DNA of 64,000 bases from an uncultured bacterium (GTDB lineage Bacteria > Verrucomicrobiota > Kiritimatiellia > CAIKKV01): positions 1 through 64,000 of the forward strand of contig CALHRZ010000007.1 in assembly GCA_938038445.1 (NCBI GenBank). The letters run 5' to 3'. Of this stretch, positions 27,858 through 36,210 are shown one piece after another; position 1 is the first letter of the stretch; every line of letters begins with the position of its first letter. The notes under the pieces are model-generated. The model was not told the DNA's origin. It was given only the letters and a program-made list of their open reading frames with translations, and searched no databases. Made by a program: the position numbers and the translations under genes.

Positions 27858-29050
27858 TGGGGTTCCTCCCCACTGGAGGCGGTCAGGATCCGGATGCTCG
27901 CTCCATCGGTTAATCGGTGTTGTCCCATGATGACAATGGGATCGCCTTCGACCAGGCCGCTCAGGATTTCCACCCATGAACCCTCTCGGATGCCGGTGGT
28001 GATGTCCCGGGCTTGAGCCGTTTCGCCGTTGGCCACGTAGACGATTTGGCGGTCGAGAATACGGATGATGGCCTCTGCGGGGATTGCGAGAGTCCGGGGG
28101 CGGATTTTGAGCGGGATACGGACGGAGGCATACAACCCCGATTTAAGGGGCAAGGAGTCGTCGGGAGGATTTTCGACGCGAAACTCGAGCGTGGCGGTTC
28201 GGATGGTTTTATCTACGGTTGGGAAAATGGCATACAGGTCGGCTTGAAGGGGGCGGTTTGGACGGGTGTCGATTTGAATTTCGGCCTTGACCGGCCGACC
28301 GGCGAGTTCGGGGAGATAGCGGGTGGGGATGGCGCAGCGGATGCGGACAGTGTCGGTATGCACGAGGCGGAGGAGGGGAGTGGAGGGGGACACCAAGGTT
28401 CCGGGATCGGCATACCGGGCCGCGACGATTCCATCGAAGGGGGCGCGGAGGAAGGCTTCGTTGCGGGTGACTTCTGCGGCTTGGAGGGCTGCTTCGGCTT
28501 GCGCGAGGCGAGCCAATGCCTGTTCGAGAGCGGCGGCGGCTTGCTCATCGAGTGTCACGGCGCGGTCTCGGGCCTGTTCCGTGATGGAGCCTTGGGCGAA
28601 GAGATTTTCCGCTCTTCGGCGTTCCCGCTCGGCCTCCGTGCGGTTGATTCGGGCGGCGGAAACGGCAGCACGCGCGACTTGGAGGGCGGCCTGTGCTTGA
28701 GCCACCGCTGCATCGAGGTCGTCGTGTTCCAGTTCGGCCACGCGCATACCGGCCTTGACGCGGACGCCTTCCTCGATGGGGGTTCCGTCTTCGCGGGCGA
28801 GGCGGGCCAGGCGGCCGGATATTTTTGGACGAATCTCCACGTCGTACAGCGCTTCCACGGTTCCGTTCAGGGACAGTTGTTCTTGGAGATCCATTCTTTC
28901 CGCGGAGGCGACGCGGACGGGCACGGGGGATCGGGTGGTGGTTTGCGTGGCTGCGGGTGGTTTTTTTGAGGACCGGAGTCCCGCGAGGGTGCCGGCGATG
29001 ATGACGAGGGTGATGAGAAGGATCAGGAGGATTCGGAGGAATGTTTTCAT
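27854..29050 (-). CDS. RND periplasmic adaptor (membrane fusion protein)
   Basis: A 398-residue HlyD/AcrA-type adaptor. An N-terminal membrane helix (LRILLILLITLVIIAG) anchors it. The lipoyl halves are GTVEALYDVEIRPKISG and FLRAPFDGIVAARYADPGTL, enclosing an Ala/Glu/Arg-rich coiled-coil hairpin at about 110-205. Beta-barrel and membrane-proximal domains follow (PAEAIIRI, GLVEGDPIVIMGQHRL). It bridges the RND permease and the TolC channel encoded on either side. The start overlaps the tolC-like stop and the end overlaps the permease start, each by 4 nt. Confidence 0.94.
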   Translation of the reverse strand: MKTFLRILLILLITLVIIAGTLAGLRSSKKPPAATQTTTRSPVPVRVASAERMDLQEQLSLNGTVEALYDVEIRPKISGRLARLAREDGTPIEEGVRVKAGMRVAELEHDDLDAAVAQAQAALQVARAAVSAARINRTEAERERRRAENLFAQGSITEQARDRAVTLDEQAAAALEQALARLAQAEAALQAAEVTRNEAFLRAPFDGIVAARYADPGTLVSPSTPLLRLVHTDTVRIRCAIPTRYLPELAGRPVKAEIQIDTRPNRPLQADLYAIFPTVDKTIRTATLEFRVENPPDDSLPLKSGLYASVRIPLKIRPRTLAIPAEAIIRILDRQIVYVANGETAQARDITTGIREGSWVEILSGLVEGDPIVIMGQHRLTDGASIRILTASSGEEPQ

Positions 29051-30477
29051 GGTGTCATTTCTTTCTCCAGCAGATCCGACAGGTCGGAGGGGTCGTCATC
29101 GAGCGGGGAAAGGGTTCCGACGGCGCGCCGCAGAGCCAGCCGCGCGAGGGTGTGTTGGTAAAGGGCTTCGGCGTATAGGGCCTCGGTTCGAAGGAGGGCG
29201 GCTCGTGCCTGCGCGAGTTCGGCGGCGGTGGTCACGCCTTCCCGATAACCGGCATCGGCCAAGGTGAGGGCTTCGCGGGCGCGTTGCAGGTTGACCGTTT
29301 GGGTTTCGACGATGCGTTCTGCGTTTTCGAGTGCGGCGAGGGTTTGAGAGAGTTCGAGCCAGACTTTTTCTTCAACAGATTCCCGCTCCCGGAGACGCCG
29401 TCGGAGGATGGCCTCTTCCTCGGCGATCCGGCCTTCACGGGCGAGTCCATCGAACAAGAACCAGTCGGCCTGAAGGCCGACCGACCAATCGGGGGTCCAG
29501 TCCCCCGCCCCGAGCCGGTCGTTATCGAGGCGCACTTGGTTGTATTGATAAAAGGCGGAGATCATGGGGAAGCGGGTTCCCTTTGCGGCCTGGACCGATT
29601 CCTGTTGGAGGCGGATCAGAAGGTCGGCCTGGTTGAGTTCCGGGCGGAATGCGAAGGTTTTTTGAAGAAGCGTTTTGAGCGCCGGTCGGCCGGCTTGGAG
29701 GGTGAGTTCGCCCGCCAATTGGACGGGAGTCTCTTCCCGAACGCCCATCAATTGGAAGAGGCGGAGACGGGCCACATGCACACGGTTTTGGGATTGAATG
29801 TGTTCGGCATGGGCGTTCGCGAGTTCCACTTCGGCGCGGAGAACATCGTACCGGGCGGCGACGCCTTGGGCGGCGCGGTCGCGGGTATTCCGGAGCTGCG
29901 TTTCGGCCGATTCGACGGCGGAGCGGGCGGCACATTCCAATCGCTGGGCGAGCAAGACGGCATAGAACGCCGAGGCGGTTTCCAGGACCAAGGCTTGAGT
30001 TCGACTGCGGATGAATTCATCGGACCAGAAATCGTAGAGGCGGGCGGCCCGCAACGCGGCCTGGATCGCGCCGCCGCGGAAGAGGGGTTGCGTGATGCGG
30101 AGACTGGCAGAATACCGTTCGAAGGGATCGGGGTTTGGGGTTGCTCCGGTGGTGCTGGGATCGAGGCGGGCGGCCGTGCCCTGGAGGGCGAGGGAGGGAA
30201 GAATCTGGCCGTAGGAGGAGAGGATACGCCCCGAGGCGATTTCTTTTTCTTCGAGTGCGGCGAGCAACTCTTTGTTCTGACGCAGGGCCAGTTTAACGGC
30301 GTCGGAGAGGGTCAAGACTCCTGCGATGGCCGGCGGGTTTTCTGGGGGAGGGGCGGGTGGGTGGGCGCGTTCGATCCGTTTCTCGCGAAGGGTGGCATGA
30401 TAGGCGGATCGAGTCACGCAGCCGGAGAGGAGGGCAGCGGAGCAGAGGAGGAGCGAACGAAGGGGGAGGCGGTTCAT
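29047..30477 (-). CDS. TolC-family outer-membrane efflux lipoprotein
   Basis: A 476-residue outer-membrane factor. The signal peptide MNRLPLRSLLLCSAALLSGC ends in a lipobox with Cys20, so it should be lipidated, as OprM is. Two repeated OEP helical domains follow, recognisable by LSDAVKLALRQNKELLAALEE and by PELNQADLLIRLQQ, with the second-repeat turn near WSVGLQADWFLFDG. I chose the ATG at 30477, overlapping the TetR stop (ATGA), because it gives a proper signal peptide. The gene is the outer-membrane part of the tripartite pump. Confidence 0.93.
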   Translation of the reverse strand: MNRLPLRSLLLCSAALLSGCVTRSAYHATLREKRIERAHPPAPPPENPPAIAGVLTLSDAVKLALRQNKELLAALEEKEIASGRILSSYGQILPSLALQGTAARLDPSTTGATPNPDPFERYSASLRITQPLFRGGAIQAALRAARLYDFWSDEFIRSRTQALVLETASAFYAVLLAQRLECAARSAVESAETQLRNTRDRAAQGVAARYDVLRAEVELANAHAEHIQSQNRVHVARLRLFQLMGVREETPVQLAGELTLQAGRPALKTLLQKTFAFRPELNQADLLIRLQQESVQAAKGTRFPMISAFYQYNQVRLDNDRLGAGDWTPDWSVGLQADWFLFDGLAREGRIAEEEAILRRRLRERESVEEKVWLELSQTLAALENAERIVETQTVNLQRAREALTLADAGYREGVTTAAELAQARAALLRTEALYAEALYQHTLARLALRRAVGTLSPLDDDPSDLSDLLEKEMTP

Positions 30478-31142
30478 GGGGAGCGCGACTCCGGTGGGCG
30501 GATGGCCGTCAGAAAGGTCTGGACAGCGTTTTCCGCGAGCGTTTCGAACGGGGTGAGGGTTGGGTTTAAGTTCCAGTAGCGGACGAACCCGAGGAGAAAG
30601 GCTTGGAAACACAGGGTGAGGCAAACGGGGTCGAGGGGGAGGAAAAGCCCTTCCGACACGCCGCGGCGGAACAGGTCCGTGAGGGTGGCGGAGTAGTGGG
30701 CGATGAAGGGGGTGTGGTGGTGCTTCAGGGTTCGTTCGAAGAGAAGCCGGTCGGAGGGTTCGTTGCTGAAGACGATTTGGGCGAGCGGTTGATGGAGGCT
30801 GATGCGGCGGAGGAAGAGGCGCATGATGGCGGCGATGGCGACGCGGGGATCGGGGATTTGGGCGACGAGGGCGTCGAATTCGCGCGTCAATTCCTCGTGG
30901 TGGTGGCGCAGGACATGGGCGTAGATATCTTCCTTGTCGCGGAAGAGGTTATAGAGGGTTCCGACGGCGAATCCGGCACGCGCGGCGATGGAGGCGATGG
31001 AGGCCCTGTGGAATCCCTTTCGGATGAATTCGGATTCGGCGGCTTCCAGAATGGCGGCGCGTCGGAACTCCCGTTCGCGGGTCTTGCGAAGGCTGCGACC
31101 GGTTCGAGATTTCCCTTTGGCTATTTGGCGGGTTCGGCGCAA
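30474..31142 (-). CDS. TetR-family repressor of the efflux operon
   Basis: About 222 residues if started at the TTG at 31142. The N-terminal helix-turn-helix is clear (ILEAAESEFIRKGFHRAS, SIASIAARAGFAVGTLYNLF, RDKEDIYAHVL), followed by a helical ligand domain. The frame stays open to a TTG at 31181, but that codon lies between a good -35 and -10 (31201-31173), so the true start should be downstream. The TTG at 31142 is the best candidate, though it lacks a clear Shine-Dalgarno. The gene is first in the tolC-MFP-RND-PII unit, overlaps tolC by 4 nt, and has two inverted repeats upstream, which suggests autorepression relieved by pump substrates. Confidence 0.85.
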   Translation of the reverse strand: MRRTRQIAKGKSRTGRSLRKTREREFRRAAILEAAESEFIRKGFHRASIASIAARAGFAVGTLYNLFRDKEDIYAHVLRHHHEELTREFDALVAQIPDPRVAIAAIMRLFLRRISLHQPLAQIVFSNEPSDRLLFERTLKHHHTPFIAHYSATLTDLFRRGVSEGLFLPLDPVCLTLCFQAFLLGFVRYWNLNPTLTPFETLAENAVQTFLTAIRPPESRSP

Positions 31143-31146
31143 TTTA

Positions 31147-31161
31147 TGAATCTCTGATTCA
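31147..31161. promoter_or_regulatory. Candidate TetR operator 1
   Basis: TGAATC-TCT-GATTCA is a perfect inverted repeat with 6-bp arms. It lies just upstream of the preferred TetR start and downstream of the predicted transcription start, where repressor binding would block transcription of the efflux operon. Confidence 0.55.
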
Positions 31162-31166
31162 AAACA

Positions 31167-31180
31167 TGAATTAGTATTCA
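31167..31180. promoter_or_regulatory. Candidate TetR operator 2
   Basis: TGAAT-TAGT-ATTCA is a second perfect inverted repeat with arms matching operator 1 (TGAAT/ATTCA). The repeats start 20 bp apart, about two helical turns. It covers the predicted -10 element, so binding would exclude RNA polymerase. Confidence 0.55.
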
Positions 31181-31201
31181 AAATCTAAACGCCGGCGTCA
31201 A
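31173..31201 (-). promoter_or_regulatory. Promoter of the tetR-tolC-MFP-RND-PII operon
   Basis: On the minus strand, TTGACG (31201-31196), a 17-bp spacer and AATACT (31178-31173) give a good promoter. It lies at the 3' end of the upstream MurU-AmgK gene on the same strand and overlaps operator 2. Confidence 0.6.
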
Positions 31202-33134
31202 GATATTTTTCGAGGAAAAGGGAGAGGGTGGGGAAGGAGGCACGGCCGCCGAGGCGGCGGACTGCTCGGTGCATGAGCCGGAGGGCGGCAGGAATATGAT
31301 CGGCGAAAGCGGCCGTTGCGGGGGAAGACCCGAGCCGCGCATAGGCGCCCAGAGCCTGGGCGAGCCGCTGTACGGCGGCCGTAAAAAAATCGTCGGTTTC
31401 GACGGGAAACGAGACGTGGCGGCGATATTCTTCCAACAGGGCGTCCTGAAGGGATTCGGAAAGGGAGACATAAGGATCGAAGAGGAGGGAGGCCAGATCA
31501 TACACGGCCGGCCCCCAGCGCATGCCCTGGTAGTCAATGAAGGCGGGGCCTTGCGGTGTGAGCAGAATATTGGAGGATTGGAGATCCCGATGGAGGAGCA
31601 CCCCTGGTAGTGTCAGAAGGCGTTGTGCAACATCTTCCATCTCGCGGAGGAGGGGGCGGATTTGGGCTGGCGTCATTCCCAGCCGGTGTTCGAGGAAGAA
31701 ACGGGCCCAGTAGCGGCGTTCCCAGCGATAGAGGCGGGGCGAAAAAGGAGGTGCGAGAGGAAGGTGGGCCGCTTCTGCGGCGGGGCGCCCCTTCTCGTGG
31801 AGGCGTGCGGCGAGGGCGAGCACCGGCTGATAAAGGTGGAATCGTTGGGTTTCGGAAGCGGTTCGCACGGCGGTGCAGAGGTCGAGGTCGCCCAGGTCCT
31901 CCAAAAGGAGGCAACGGCGGCGGGTCTGGGAGTTCAGGAGTTGGGGAACGCGGAGACCCAACTGATGAAGGAAGAGGGTATGGCGGGCGTATCGTGCGTT
32001 TTCTTGGCGTTCGCGCCCATATTCAATCAAGATGGCGGTTTTTTCTGCGGACAGCACGCGGACGAACGTTCGGTCCGAACCGCGCGCTGGAAATGCGCAG
32101 AGGGTTGTTCGATCGGGGTTCCAGCCGGCCTTTTGGAGGACGGTGGAAAGGCGGGGCCAACGGGCGGCGGGGAGAATACAACCGGTCAGGCGGGAGGCGA
32201 ACACCGTTGTTCCCGGTGCGACGACGGCCTGGCGCAGTTCGGTTCCGGGCGCGATGGAAGCGCCGGGGGCAACGAGGGAGTTTTCGATTCGAGCGCCTTG
32301 CCCGATCGTGGCATCCGGAGCGAGAGCGGTCCATCCCTTGAGATGAACGCCTTGGCGGCGGAACCGTTTTCGCAGTCCATTCTGGCGGCGGTCATAGAGC
32401 GCTGCACCCGGGGTTCGACTGCGGAAAGCGGCTTCCACGGCCTGATGGGTTGCGAGGTAATCGGAGAGGGTTCCGAGGTCGGCCCAAAAAGCGTTTGGCA
32501 AGGCACAACCCCGGATGACACCGCCTGAGGACTGGGCTTTTTCGTAGGCTTCGATGATGGAGGAAGGAATGGAAGGCGTCAGGAAGGGGAGGATGCGTCG
32601 GTCGAGGAGATGGAGGCCGCTGAAGGTGAAGGCATCGGGCTTTCCGGGGGATCCCTGACGGAACGAGGCGATGGTTCCTTTTTTCATGAGGACGGTTTGA
32701 GGCCCGATATGGGGGATGAGCCAGAGAACGGCGAGGGGAGGTGAAGGGGTTTGCCAGGTGGAGAGGAGGGGGGAGGGATCGGCTTCGAACGCGATGTCGC
32801 CGTTGATCAGCCAGAAGGGGTGGTCATCCAAAAACCATTCGGCATGACGCAACGCCCCGCCGGTGCCGAACGGACCGGCTGATTCAAACGAAAAATGGAG
32901 CTGGAGGGGGCCTTTCCAGGCGGAGGCGACGGCCCATACGGTATCGGCGCGACCCGCGAGGTTGATGAGGACATGCTGCACACCCCATTGGACGAGCCGG
33001 TCGAGGGTATGGTGGAGCAGAGGGCGGTTCCAGAGGGGGATGCAGGGTTTTGGGACGGCGTAACTAAGGGGGCGGAGGCGGGTGGCGAGGCCGGCGGCGA
33101 GGAGGAAGGCTTTGGTAGGCCGGGGAGGGGTCAT
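31185..33134 (-). CDS. Fused sugar-1-phosphate nucleotidyltransferase (MurU-like) and sugar kinase (AmgK-like)
   Basis: A 649-residue protein of three parts. Residues about 8-230 form a nucleotidyltransferase (LLAAGLATRLRPLSYAVPKP, INGDIAFEA). A short left-handed beta-helix follows (about 265-315, APDATIGQGARIENSLVAPG). The last part, about 330-640, is an APH-like kinase with the Brenner motif LLHRDLQSSNIL and the metal motif FIDYQGMRWGPAVYDLASLL. AmgK phosphorylates MurNAc/GlcNAc at the anomeric carbon and MurU makes the UDP-sugar, together a shortcut for peptidoglycan recycling. The upstream namZ gene overlaps by 4 nt and supports this role. Kinase specificity is inferred. Confidence 0.85.
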   Translation of the reverse strand: MTPPRPTKAFLLAAGLATRLRPLSYAVPKPCIPLWNRPLLHHTLDRLVQWGVQHVLINLAGRADTVWAVASAWKGPLQLHFSFESAGPFGTGGALRHAEWFLDDHPFWLINGDIAFEADPSPLLSTWQTPSPPLAVLWLIPHIGPQTVLMKKGTIASFRQGSPGKPDAFTFSGLHLLDRRILPFLTPSIPSSIIEAYEKAQSSGGVIRGCALPNAFWADLGTLSDYLATHQAVEAAFRSRTPGAALYDRRQNGLRKRFRRQGVHLKGWTALAPDATIGQGARIENSLVAPGASIAPGTELRQAVVAPGTTVFASRLTGCILPAARWPRLSTVLQKAGWNPDRTTLCAFPARGSDRTFVRVLSAEKTAILIEYGRERQENARYARHTLFLHQLGLRVPQLLNSQTRRRCLLLEDLGDLDLCTAVRTASETQRFHLYQPVLALAARLHEKGRPAAEAAHLPLAPPFSPRLYRWERRYWARFFLEHRLGMTPAQIRPLLREMEDVAQRLLTLPGVLLHRDLQSSNILLTPQGPAFIDYQGMRWGPAVYDLASLLFDPYVSLSESLQDALLEEYRRHVSFPVETDDFFTAAVQRLAQALGAYARLGSSPATAAFADHIPAALRLMHRAVRRLGGRASFPTLSLFLEKYLDAGV

Positions 33135-34291
33135 TCGGGCCGGTAGAGGAGGAGGGAGGAACGGAGTTGGTTGAAGCGGCGGAGGTTCGGCTCCCAGCGA
33201 GCGACAATGGAATGGGGAGGGGCGCCGTCGAGGAGTGCGAGTCGCACCTCATCCGTTCCATAGAGTTTGTCGAAGAATTCGGGCCGTGCCTTTTGCCACA
33301 GGCGTTTTTTCCCGTACAGTTCCTGGAGGGTTGAAAGGATGAGGACGGAGAGGGCGACGGGTCGGAAACGGCGCGGGTCCGTTACGACGATTCGGACACC
33401 GGAGAGAAGTCGGTTGGCCCATGGGCCGCTATTGGGGATGAAGGGGTGGAAATGGCACGAGACCCCGGGAAGGGGGGAGTCGGCAAGGCGTTCCAGGACT
33501 TCGGGGGCACGCATCCAAGGGGCTCCGAAGACTTGGAAAGGAAGGAGGCCGGTTCGATCGCACGTGAGCGAGGGAACGGCTTCGGTGAAGACGGTGGCGA
33601 GGTAGCATGCGGCGGATTCCCAGGAACGGATGCCGGGGGAGGGTGGGACCCAAGGTGGCCAGTCGGGTCCACGATGGGGCTGACGGGGCCATGCCCTCAT
33701 GGGGGCGATTTTAAGGGGCAGGTCAAGATTCCAAATCTTTTGGAGGCAGAGGGCCGTTTCGCCAGGGGTCATGGCGGTCGCGAGGGGAAGGGGTACTGCG
33801 CCGACAAAACTGGTGAAACGGCTTTCCAGCAGAGGACCATCCGGTTGGAAGGGAAGGGGAATGGGGCGATCGGCGATGATGAGGGGGGTCTGGAATCGGG
33901 CGGCGGTGCGGAGAACTTCGGCGAGTGTGCTCAGGTAGGTATAACATCGCGCGCCGATGTCCTGGAGGTCGAAAATCAGGAGGTCCAGGCGCCGGAGTTG
34001 AGCGGGATCGGGTGCTGGGCGGGTCCCGTAGAGGGAGCAGAGAGGAATATTCCAGTGGGGGAAGCGCGTCGAGGGGACGGGTTGTCCTGCCCCGGCGGAC
34101 CCGAAAAAGCCGTGTTCGGGCGAGAAGAGGACGGCGAGAGTGGTATCCTGTCGGCGATGCCAGGCTTCGGCGGCCGTGCAACCGTTTTGGGTCATGGCGG
34201 CGATGTGGGAGACCAGGCCCACCCTCTGACCGGCACCTGCGCGGCGTGCAAGCAGGACATCCATACCGGTTGCGAAACGCGGGCGGCTCAT
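33131..34291 (-). CDS. namZ: Exo-beta-N-acetylmuramidase NamZ (DUF1343, GH171)
   Basis: A 386-residue DUF1343 protein, the family of NamZ, which releases MurNAc from the non-reducing end of peptidoglycan fragments. Family motifs are clear: VGLVSHIAA, LFSPEHGFFGSAGAGQ, LIFDLQDIGARCYTYLSTL and IADRPIPL. No signal peptide is predicted, so the substrate would be imported muropeptides or glycans unless export is unconventional. The ATG at 34291 overlaps the stop of the sensor-kinase-like gene (ATGA) and starts where the family does. The stop overlaps the MurU-AmgK start. The two genes form a MurNAc release, phosphorylation and UDP-activation route. Confidence 0.88.
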   Translation of the reverse strand: MSRPRFATGMDVLLARRAGAGQRVGLVSHIAAMTQNGCTAAEAWHRRQDTTLAVLFSPEHGFFGSAGAGQPVPSTRFPHWNIPLCSLYGTRPAPDPAQLRRLDLLIFDLQDIGARCYTYLSTLAEVLRTAARFQTPLIIADRPIPLPFQPDGPLLESRFTSFVGAVPLPLATAMTPGETALCLQKIWNLDLPLKIAPMRAWPRQPHRGPDWPPWVPPSPGIRSWESAACYLATVFTEAVPSLTCDRTGLLPFQVFGAPWMRAPEVLERLADSPLPGVSCHFHPFIPNSGPWANRLLSGVRIVVTDPRRFRPVALSVLILSTLQELYGKKRLWQKARPEFFDKLYGTDEVRLALLDGAPPHSIVARWEPNLRRFNQLRSSLLLYRPE

Positions 34292-36210
34292 GCCGGGGGA
34301 GATTCTCGGGGCGGCGATTCGCCCAGGAACCGACGGATGGCCTCGAGGAGCGTTTTCCGCTCGAAGGGTTTTTGGACGAAAGTCCATTCGCAAGGGGGCA
34401 TGAATCGGCGGAGATAATCGCGGGAGAAGCCGGAGGTGATGATCAGGGGGGCGCCGGGCTTGGCATCGACGAGGCGGCGCATAAACGGCTCGATATCCAT
34501 ATCGGGCATGACGGCATTGACCATACAGATGGCATAGGCGTCGGGGGATTTGCGGTAGAGGGAGAGACCTTCGGCGGCGGTTCGAGCGGTATGGACGCGG
34601 AATCCTTCGTTGTTGAGAAGCGCCTCCGTTTCTTCGAGAAAAATGTCCTCGTGGTCTATGGCGAGGATCAGGGGTTTTTCCTCCCGGCGCGGGGCGAGCT
34701 GGGGGGCGGCGATGGGCAAGAATATCTGGAAGACGGTTCCAGAGGCTGGCGTGCTTCGGACGGAGACCCATCCCCCGTAGCCGAGTACGGCGGTATGTGC
34801 GACGGAGAGGCCGAGTCCCATGCCGCCGTTCTCACGGGGGGAGGAGAACGGGTCGAAGAGATGGGCGAGGTCTTCCGGCGAGAGGTTGGCGCCGGTATCT
34901 CCGATTTGGACGATGGCGTAGGGGCCGATTTGGGCGCGGGGATTCGCCTGGATGTCCGGCCGTTTGACCATCTGCTCACGGCAGGAAAAACGGATTTGAG
35001 CGCCTTTGGGGAGGGACTCTGCGCGTTGGAACAGGAAATCAATGAAAATATCCACCAGTTGAGCAGGGTCGGCCAGGACGTGGGTAGGGCGCCCGGAATC
35101 GGAGAAACGAATTTCCACGCCGTTTCGCTCGAGGGCAGGTTGGGCCAGTTCGATGGCGCGCGTGAGGGCCTGTTTCAATGAGACGGGTTGGAGGCGGACA
35201 TCGCCTTCGGTATTACTTGCCCGGGCGATGGTAAGGATGCGGCGGGTAAGATCCTGGCCCAGGCGGGAGGCATCCATAATTTTTTGCGCGTCGGCGTGGG
35301 CGCTGGTATTTCGGGCGACGGTGGAGAGAAGCGAAGAGGCGAAACCGGTGAGGGCGCCGAAGATGCGGGAATATTCGCGGGCAACAGTGCTGGAGAGTTT
35401 GCCCAAGGCCTCCATTTTTTCGGCGCGCCGGTGGTGTCGTTCATTCCGGAGTGTTCGGCTCACATCCCGGAGGATAAGGACGACGCCTTCGAGTCGGCGG
35501 GGGTCGAGGAGAATGGGGGCTCCCGAGACCGAGACTTCTTTCTCTTTCTTGTTTTTGTCGGTCAGAAGAAGCGTTCGTTCTGGAAGGGAGCGGGCTTTGC
35601 CGCTTCGGAGCATTTTCATTGCGGGGCATTCGATGGGGCGGCGGCTTTCGGGGTCGGCCACGAGGCAGATGTCGGCTAACGAGCGTCCAATGGCATCTTT
35701 GCGATTCCAGCGGGTGAGGCGTTCGGCGGCGCGGTTGAAGAAGTTGATGGTGCCTTGTCGGTCGGTCGTGATCAGGCCATCGGTGAGGGAATCGAGGGCG
35801 GTGGTGAACCAACGGCGGGACTCTTCGAGGCGGGTTTCGTACTGATGACGGAAGAGGGCGATTTCGAGGGCGATTTTGAGATCTGTTTTTTCCAGGGGGC
35901 GGTGGAGGAAACCGAAGGGGGAAGCGGATTGGACTTTTTCGAGTAGGGCGGGATTGGAGGAGTCGGCGATGTACACGACGGGGATGCGGAGTTTCAAGAG
36001 TTGGGCACCGGTTTGGAAGGCGTCCGGATGACCTTCGAGTTCTGTTTCGATGAGGGCGAGATCGGGCGGGAGCGAGTGGGCGGCTTCGAGCGCCTGTTGG
36101 CCGGAAAGGGCGGGGCCGTCGGCGCCATATCCGAGCGAGGCGACGAGGTTCTGGAGTTCGGCGCCGGCCTCGGGGGTTTTGGAAAGAATCAAGATGCGAA
36201 TACCCGCCAT
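34288..36210 (-). CDS. Degenerate hybrid histidine kinase (REC-PAS-HK-REC) lacking phosphotransfer residues
   Basis: A 640-residue cytoplasmic protein with receiver, PAS, dimerisation/ATPase and receiver domains. The usual phospho-residues are altered. The first receiver has Glu55 (LALIETELEG) for the Asp and Arg104 for the Lys. The H-box reads LGKLSSTVAREY with Arg278 for His. The ATPase N-box has Gln395 for Asn. The last receiver has Asn565 (MVNAVMPDMD) for Asp. The G2 box GGMGLGLS and DTG remain. It should be unable to autophosphorylate and may act as a phosphorylation-independent scaffold or sensor. It heads the namZ operon with ATGA overlap. The reading frame is intact over full length, which argues against a pseudogene. 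Confidence 0.85.
   Translation of the reverse strand: MAGIRILILSKTPEAGAELQNLVASLGYGADGPALSGQQALEAAHSLPPDLALIETELEGHPDAFQTGAQLLKLRIPVVYIADSSNPALLEKVQSASPFGFLHRPLEKTDLKIALEIALFRHQYETRLEESRRWFTTALDSLTDGLITTDRQGTINFFNRAAERLTRWNRKDAIGRSLADICLVADPESRRPIECPAMKMLRSGKARSLPERTLLLTDKNKKEKEVSVSGAPILLDPRRLEGVVLILRDVSRTLRNERHHRRAEKMEALGKLSSTVAREYSRIFGALTGFASSLLSTVARNTSAHADAQKIMDASRLGQDLTRRILTIARASNTEGDVRLQPVSLKQALTRAIELAQPALERNGVEIRFSDSGRPTHVLADPAQLVDIFIDFLFQRAESLPKGAQIRFSCREQMVKRPDIQANPRAQIGPYAIVQIGDTGANLSPEDLAHLFDPFSSPRENGGMGLGLSVAHTAVLGYGGWVSVRSTPASGTVFQIFLPIAAPQLAPRREEKPLILAIDHEDIFLEETEALLNNEGFRVHTARTAAEGLSLYRKSPDAYAICMVNAVMPDMDIEPFMRRLVDAKPGAPLIITSGFSRDYLRRFMPPCEWTFVQKPFERKTLLEAIRRFLGESPPRESPPA

Follow-up and report, generated by a model that had tools for sequence, protein, structure and literature searches.

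The window, that is, the whole 64,000-nucleotide stretch of DNA analysed here, carries on its minus strand (34288-36210) a gene that reads as a full-length hybrid histidine kinase (HK), in which the residues of phosphotransfer appear to have been replaced and whose stop codon overlaps the start of namZ. Such a locus raises the question of whether a kinase-like protein deprived of its chemistry is a gene on its way out of the genome, or a component that is kept for a role other than the transfer of phosphate.

Reading frame, predicted fold and catalytic residues

The frame opens with an ATG and runs for 640 codons with no internal stop, and its base composition by codon position is that of the neighbouring genes. 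The open reading frame, Pfam matches and an AlphaFold2 model together describe a REC1-PAS-DHp-CA-REC2 protein, composed of a pseudo-receiver (REC1, residues 1-125, 35836-36210), a PAS domain (residues 130-252, 35455-35823; PF00989, E 1.3e-13), a DHp helical hairpin (residues 258-335, 35206-35439), a CA or HATPase_c domain (residues 340-505, 34696-35193) and a second receiver (REC2, residues 513-632, 34315-34674), all on the minus strand. Pfam recognises PAS, HATPase_c (still with an E of 1.9e-13) and two Response_reg stretches in the protein, and gives no HisKA match in it, even at E<=1. In the model, built with 22 family sequences, all five domains are predicted to be folded (mean pLDDT 84.8), REC1 included, and the pTM of 0.43 makes the arrangement of the domains unreliable. 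The intact frame and folds over 640 residues that were originally predicted are thus borne out.

The five substitutions on which that prediction was built were each placed by orthologue alignment and read from the codons. Arg278 (CGC, 35377-35379) replaces the phospho-acceptor His of the H-box, Glu55 (GAA, 36046-36048) the phospho-acceptor Asp of REC1, Arg104 (CGC, 35899-35901) the conserved Lys of the same domain, Gln395 (CAA, 35026-35028) the Asn of the N-box, and Asn565 (AAT, 34516-34518) the phospho-acceptor Asp of REC2. The alignment adds the acid pair of REC1 (E10/D11, here S10/K11), the Asn282 at position H+4 (Arg282), the REC2 acid D520 (His520) and the G1-box Gly442 (Asn442), as well as the TTK motif of the CA domain, which is lost. 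On the other hand, Lys614, Ser593 and Asp519 of REC2, Asp438 and Gly440 of the G1 box and the whole G2 box (GMGLGLS) are kept, so that the loss of every phosphotransfer residue, as first claimed, is an overstatement of replacements that are themselves real. A functional hybrid kinase is nevertheless contradicted at the H-box (Arg278, no HisKA match), at the ATP boxes (N395Q and G442N, though G2 is kept) and in both receivers (S10/K11/E55/R104 in REC1, and H520/N565 in REC2, with Lys614 kept). An HK fold from which the catalytic residues are gone is what defines a pseudo-histidine kinase, and the pseudokinase reading is supported at the level of the sequence.

Neither a shifted H-box nor a nearby His as acceptor accounts for Arg278, since the window stretch EKMExLGKLSSTVA[R]E matches EKMELLGKLSSTVA[H]E of a relative with 50% identity column by column. 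His258 and His259, 19-20 residues upstream of Arg278, are both present in that relative together with its own H278. The replacements also exceed chance, because HisKA domains without the His are rare among bacteria (0.9%; PMC12632262) and because conserved columns were lost far more often at catalytic sites (9/10) than elsewhere (53/144; Fisher p=0.0013). A further suggestion, that Glu55 mimics phospho-Asp, is not favoured, because the adjacent Mg2+-binding pair is Ser10/Lys11, position 55 is an Ala in the sister protein, and no other domain has accelerated as much as REC1.

A family with recurrent loss of the histidine

A profile search over 346 genomes of one bacterial class (PVC group), all of them assemblies and many incomplete (the window genome is 92% complete), preceded the construction, without the catalytic columns, of a tree of 71 proteins. 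The window protein falls within a monophyletic clade of 32 members (support 100/100), which is also distinguished by a REC2 signature (SGFSR, Tyr599, Trp609 and QKP) whose full set is absent from the other sampled kinases. The family pattern, [SC]GFSR-x-[YMFH]...W.F.QKP, is complete in the window protein as SGFSRDY..R...W.F.QKP, with SGFSR (residues 593-597, 34420-34434, minus strand) forming part of a REC2 face that hardly varies among members; both clade and signature thus include this protein. A degenerate DNA pattern for SGFSR was uninformative across the class, where it matches everywhere at control level. A phylum sample outside the class gave no clear family member; the scores of two genomes in it were comparable to those of non-members.

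The H-box His is absent from 23 of the 32 members and kept in nine, and eleven kinds of residue stand in its place (R, Y, Q, K, G, N, D, E, V, I and S). The minimum number of changes at this site on the whole tree is eight, at least seven of them inside the family and one outside, and a hand count from the tree gives about 9-11 losses if loss is irreversible. Outside the clade the His is kept in 38 of 39 sampled HKs (absent in one), a difference with a Fisher p of 2e-10 calculated on related rows that are not independent. The receiver and most of the ATP site are spared: His-less members keep the REC2 Asp in 21/22 cases, the REC2 Lys in 22/22, the N-box Asn in 20/23 and the H+4 Asn in 19/23, and the REC2 Asp is found in all 30 other family members that cover the site, the window protein being the sole exception.

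The closest relative, or sister (G001, 50% identity), which was the only true orthologue recovered by contig search, keeps H278, N395 and D565 and has A55, and five more distant proteins (G004, G011, G012, G016 and G035; 31-36% identity) show no loss at the main catalytic sites. No closer relatives were found among viral contigs. The conservation of the substitutions among orthologues is hence ruled out, since the sister retains His, N-box Asn and REC2 Asp, and parsimony on this alignment places the loss of His278 on the window's own lineage.

A related group of full-length REC-PAS-HK-REC proteins in family f7 constitutes a second site of kinase erosion, with N395H in five genomes (L021, L084, L051, L090 and L050) and a Gly at the phospho-acceptor His in L023.

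Selection and domain-specific change

Purifying selection maintains at least one His-less branch of the family, a clade with Gln at the site and a dN/dS of about 0.07-0.1 (G322/G324, 0.080/0.88 by NG86 and 0.080/1.22 by YN00; G322/G325, 0.125/1.25). In the window lineage, whose closest relative stands at only 50% with dS saturated, selection after the loss of the His is not directly measurable. A branch codon model excludes neutral evolution for the branch taken as a whole (2dlnL 1193), with omega values that are unusable (saturated dS, branch lengths at their bounds), and for this reason it is silent on the period that followed the loss of the His.

The distribution of change among domains gives an indirect view of selection on the window protein. 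Conserved columns lost alone number 35 in the window protein and 10 in the sister, and they divide, window to sister, as 13:1 in REC1, 10:1 in CA, 5:4 in PAS, 4:3 in DHp and 3:1 in REC2; the contrast between REC1+CA (23:2) and PAS+DHp+REC2 (12:8) has a Fisher p of 0.014 under a grouping chosen after the data were seen. Maximum-likelihood branch ratios, window over sister, are 3.1 for REC1 (0.88 against 0.29), 1.85 for REC2, 1.5 for CA, 1.2 for DHp (0.95 without the catalytic columns) and 1.05 for PAS. The DHp hairpin is the slowest-evolving domain of the protein, with 65% identity to the sister. From these comparisons of sequence, relaxation appears concentrated in REC1 and CA, with PAS and DHp changing at the sister's rate and the conserved columns of REC2 kept.

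The namZ neighbourhood

The ATG of namZ (33131-34291, minus strand; 386 aa, assigned by Pfam to the exo-beta-N-acetylmuramidase family) overlaps the stop of the kinase-like gene by 4 bp (ATGA), and namZ is in turn overlapped by 4 bp by a gene (31185-33134, minus strand, 649 aa) that fuses a MurU-like NTP_transferase to an AmgK-like APH domain, according to family matches. The fusion scores 79 bits against the NCBIfam MurU model and 71 against AmgK, both under the equivalog cut-offs. It would unite two MurNAc-recycling steps in one protein, and numerous genomes of the class carry it after namZ or in its vicinity. Genes of NamZ and MurU/AmgK type thus stand directly downstream of the kinase-like gene, as expected of a MurNAc-recycling operon. 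After them, on the same strand, a TetR-type regulator and a TolC-type outer-membrane protein (29047-31181) probably head an efflux operon.

The predicted coupling to namZ holds beyond the 4-bp overlap seen here, for the order kinase-namZ-MurU/AmgK is common to six genomes (G000, G001, G006, G011, G012 and G016) of three families (f1, f5 and f6) of a single order, the window's own family included. A family member also directly precedes namZ in G319 (family f39), which brings to four the families with a kinase before namZ. NamZ, with one copy per genome where found, occurs in 47 of 67 genomes of the class, and its presence does not track the kinase family (20/32 family genomes, 27/35 others), so co-occurrence adds nothing beyond adjacency. 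The pair namZ-MurU/AmgK stands without the kinase in G005, G009, G010 and G013, and without an adjacent kinase in G019, G035 and G344; four of the genomes with a kinase-less pair belong to one genus of the window's order. In genus g6 of this order the pair is kept and the kinase gene gave no match at the thresholds used. The kinase is consequently no obligatory part of a MurNAc-recycling operon.

Other family members adjoin unrelated genes, such as those for NAD synthase, glucose-6-phosphate dehydrogenase or prmA. Four members (L068, L065, L063 and L126) have as neighbour an ABC exporter operon that includes a PF16949 protein of about 555 aa, and two (L070 and L123, in G335 and G321) are near two DegP-like proteases with PDZ_3 domains. 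In G004 the intact kinase (L059) adjoins the NAD synthase gene that in G012 is found beyond the operon; namZ was not detected in G004, where the kinase may once have been followed by recycling genes that are now gone. Given that the pair occurs without an adjacent kinase and that family members reside in other contexts, the kinase accompanies the recycling genes of one order as an accessory and is not a fixed part of the pathway. The control of cell-wall recycling by this protein, as first proposed, is for the same reason put forward here as a hypothesis only.

Alternative explanations

A decaying kinase, whose function was lost recently in the window lineage and whose gene is on its way out, would account for a sister that keeps His, Asn395 and REC2 Asp, for the 35 to 10 excess of conserved columns lost alone, and for the gene not being found in genus g6. 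The closest orthologue is indeed as this explanation expects, but the relaxation that should accompany it does not affect the whole gene: the excess is found in REC1 and CA alone, the rates of PAS and DHp match those of the sister and REC2 differs by 3:1 only, with an intact 640-codon frame, a codon-position composition like that of the neighbours and a complete REC2 signature. We regard simple decay as rather unlikely. Alternatively, the frame could persist solely for the translation of namZ, with the 4-bp overlap purging nonsense and frameshift mutations although the protein no longer matters. The ATGA overlaps at both junctions and the close coupling in other genomes agree with this idea, which predicts an even missense change across domains; the branch lengths of 0.23 for DHp and 0.88 for REC1 are at odds with it, and make it improbable.

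A different possibility, compatible with the other readings and plausible if short of an even chance, concerns the family as a whole, whose members would be receivers or phosphatases: REC2 would be phosphorylated by another kinase or by a small phosphodonor, and the DHp-CA part would remove or read the phosphate. The retention in His-less members of the REC2 Asp and Lys, of the N-box Asn and of the H+4 Asn, the position used in HisKA phosphatases, argues for it. A second argument is the published statement that phosphatase activity can do without the His (PMC12632262), whereas DivL, the best studied protein of the kind, is not a phosphatase (PMC4211667). The window protein, with Arg282, Gln395 and Asn565, cannot act in this way, and would be a derived member that lost even this role. 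Finally, it is very hard to credit that the protein is still an active enzyme by another route, for instance through the phosphorylation of another residue. Its CA domain does keep Asp438, Gly440 and the G2 box, but the N-box Asn, Gly442 and the TTK motif are gone, CA has changed 1.5x faster than in the sister, and the family's eleven different replacements of the His speak against a new acceptor.

A proposed binding role and its known counterparts

The reading that we somewhat prefer is that the protein is maintained as a dimer without catalytic activity, which would bind a partner by way of DHp and REC2, and the domain pattern, in which it is REC1 and CA that lose conserved columns, would fit such a docking module better than simple decay. 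The gene belongs to a family of PAS-DHp-CA-receiver proteins that would have come to dispense with autophosphorylation; its members lost the His many times over and preserved the fold and a characteristic receiver face. In the window lineage, REC1 and the ATP domain would be shedding conserved residues because they are no longer needed. The product would be a cytoplasmic pseudo-hybrid histidine kinase with no remaining part in phosphate transfer, which would most likely still work as a PAS-gated DHp dimer and bind another kinase or regulator through its DHp and REC2 surfaces, much as DivL does. The protein would then probably signal by partner binding and not by phosphorylation. Against this reading, the window protein is alone in the family in lacking the REC2 Asp, and its REC2 branch is 1.85x that of the sister; genus g6 keeps namZ-MurU/AmgK with no match to the kinase; and the comparison relies on a relative at 50%, with saturated dS and a post hoc grouping of REC1 with CA.

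Among the best solved matches to the model in a structural search are WalK, LOV-linked kinases, NifL (9qq6), ShkA and DivL (4q20), and the DHp-CA part superimposes on DivL with a TMt of 0.68. DivL, the Tyr550 pseudokinase of Caulobacter crescentus, is the closest in kind, as it shares with the window protein a PAS-linked HisKA/CA fold in which the His is replaced. It is a single conserved protein of alphaproteobacteria and carries no receivers, whereas the present family has a C-terminal receiver and has lost the His repeatedly to many residues, both receivers being dead in the window protein. DivL shows no kinase or phosphatase activity, binds nucleotides weakly and acts by binding (PMC4211667). 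As in pseudo-receivers (PsR, or aspartate-less receivers), both receivers of the window protein keep the fold without the acceptor Asp; unlike them, the wider family keeps the REC2 Asp, whose loss is restricted to this protein. NifL is an HK-like anti-activator that acts by protein binding, on a co-encoded NifA, and no regulator of the NifA type directly adjoins the window gene. A ChrS variant of Corynebacterium glutamicum has no catalytic activity and yet continues to modulate signalling, by a proposed action through a paralogous kinase (PMC9491836), but it arose in the laboratory by a frameshift in the CA domain, and not by natural substitutions in an intact frame. VirA-like and CckA-like hybrid kinases are among the best NCBIfam matches of the window protein (160 and 115 bits), far under the curated cut-offs of 647 and 1000 bits; the catalytic residues are missing from the window protein.

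Significance

A last question is related to what such a family may teach about kinase-like sensors. It is tempting, though still tentative, to propose that the class carries a hybrid-kinase-like family whose chemistry is generally unnecessary, in which the His has been lost some ten times while the DHp and receiver surfaces stay under purifying selection, and of which the window protein is a binding-only end point. Most of the pseudo-histidine kinases known are isolated cases; the present family, His-less in 23 of its 32 members through about ten losses and with intact relatives on neighbouring branches, may help to reveal the role of a kinase-like sensor once catalysis is dispensable, as well as the order in which the parts of a kinase are lost. 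Moreover, the proximity to MurNAc recycling in one order offers a physiological context that can be tested. Were the proposal above correct, nature would offer a graded set of proteins that runs from a functional kinase to a scaffold and nothing more, with translational coupling to the genes of cell-wall recycling in one order.
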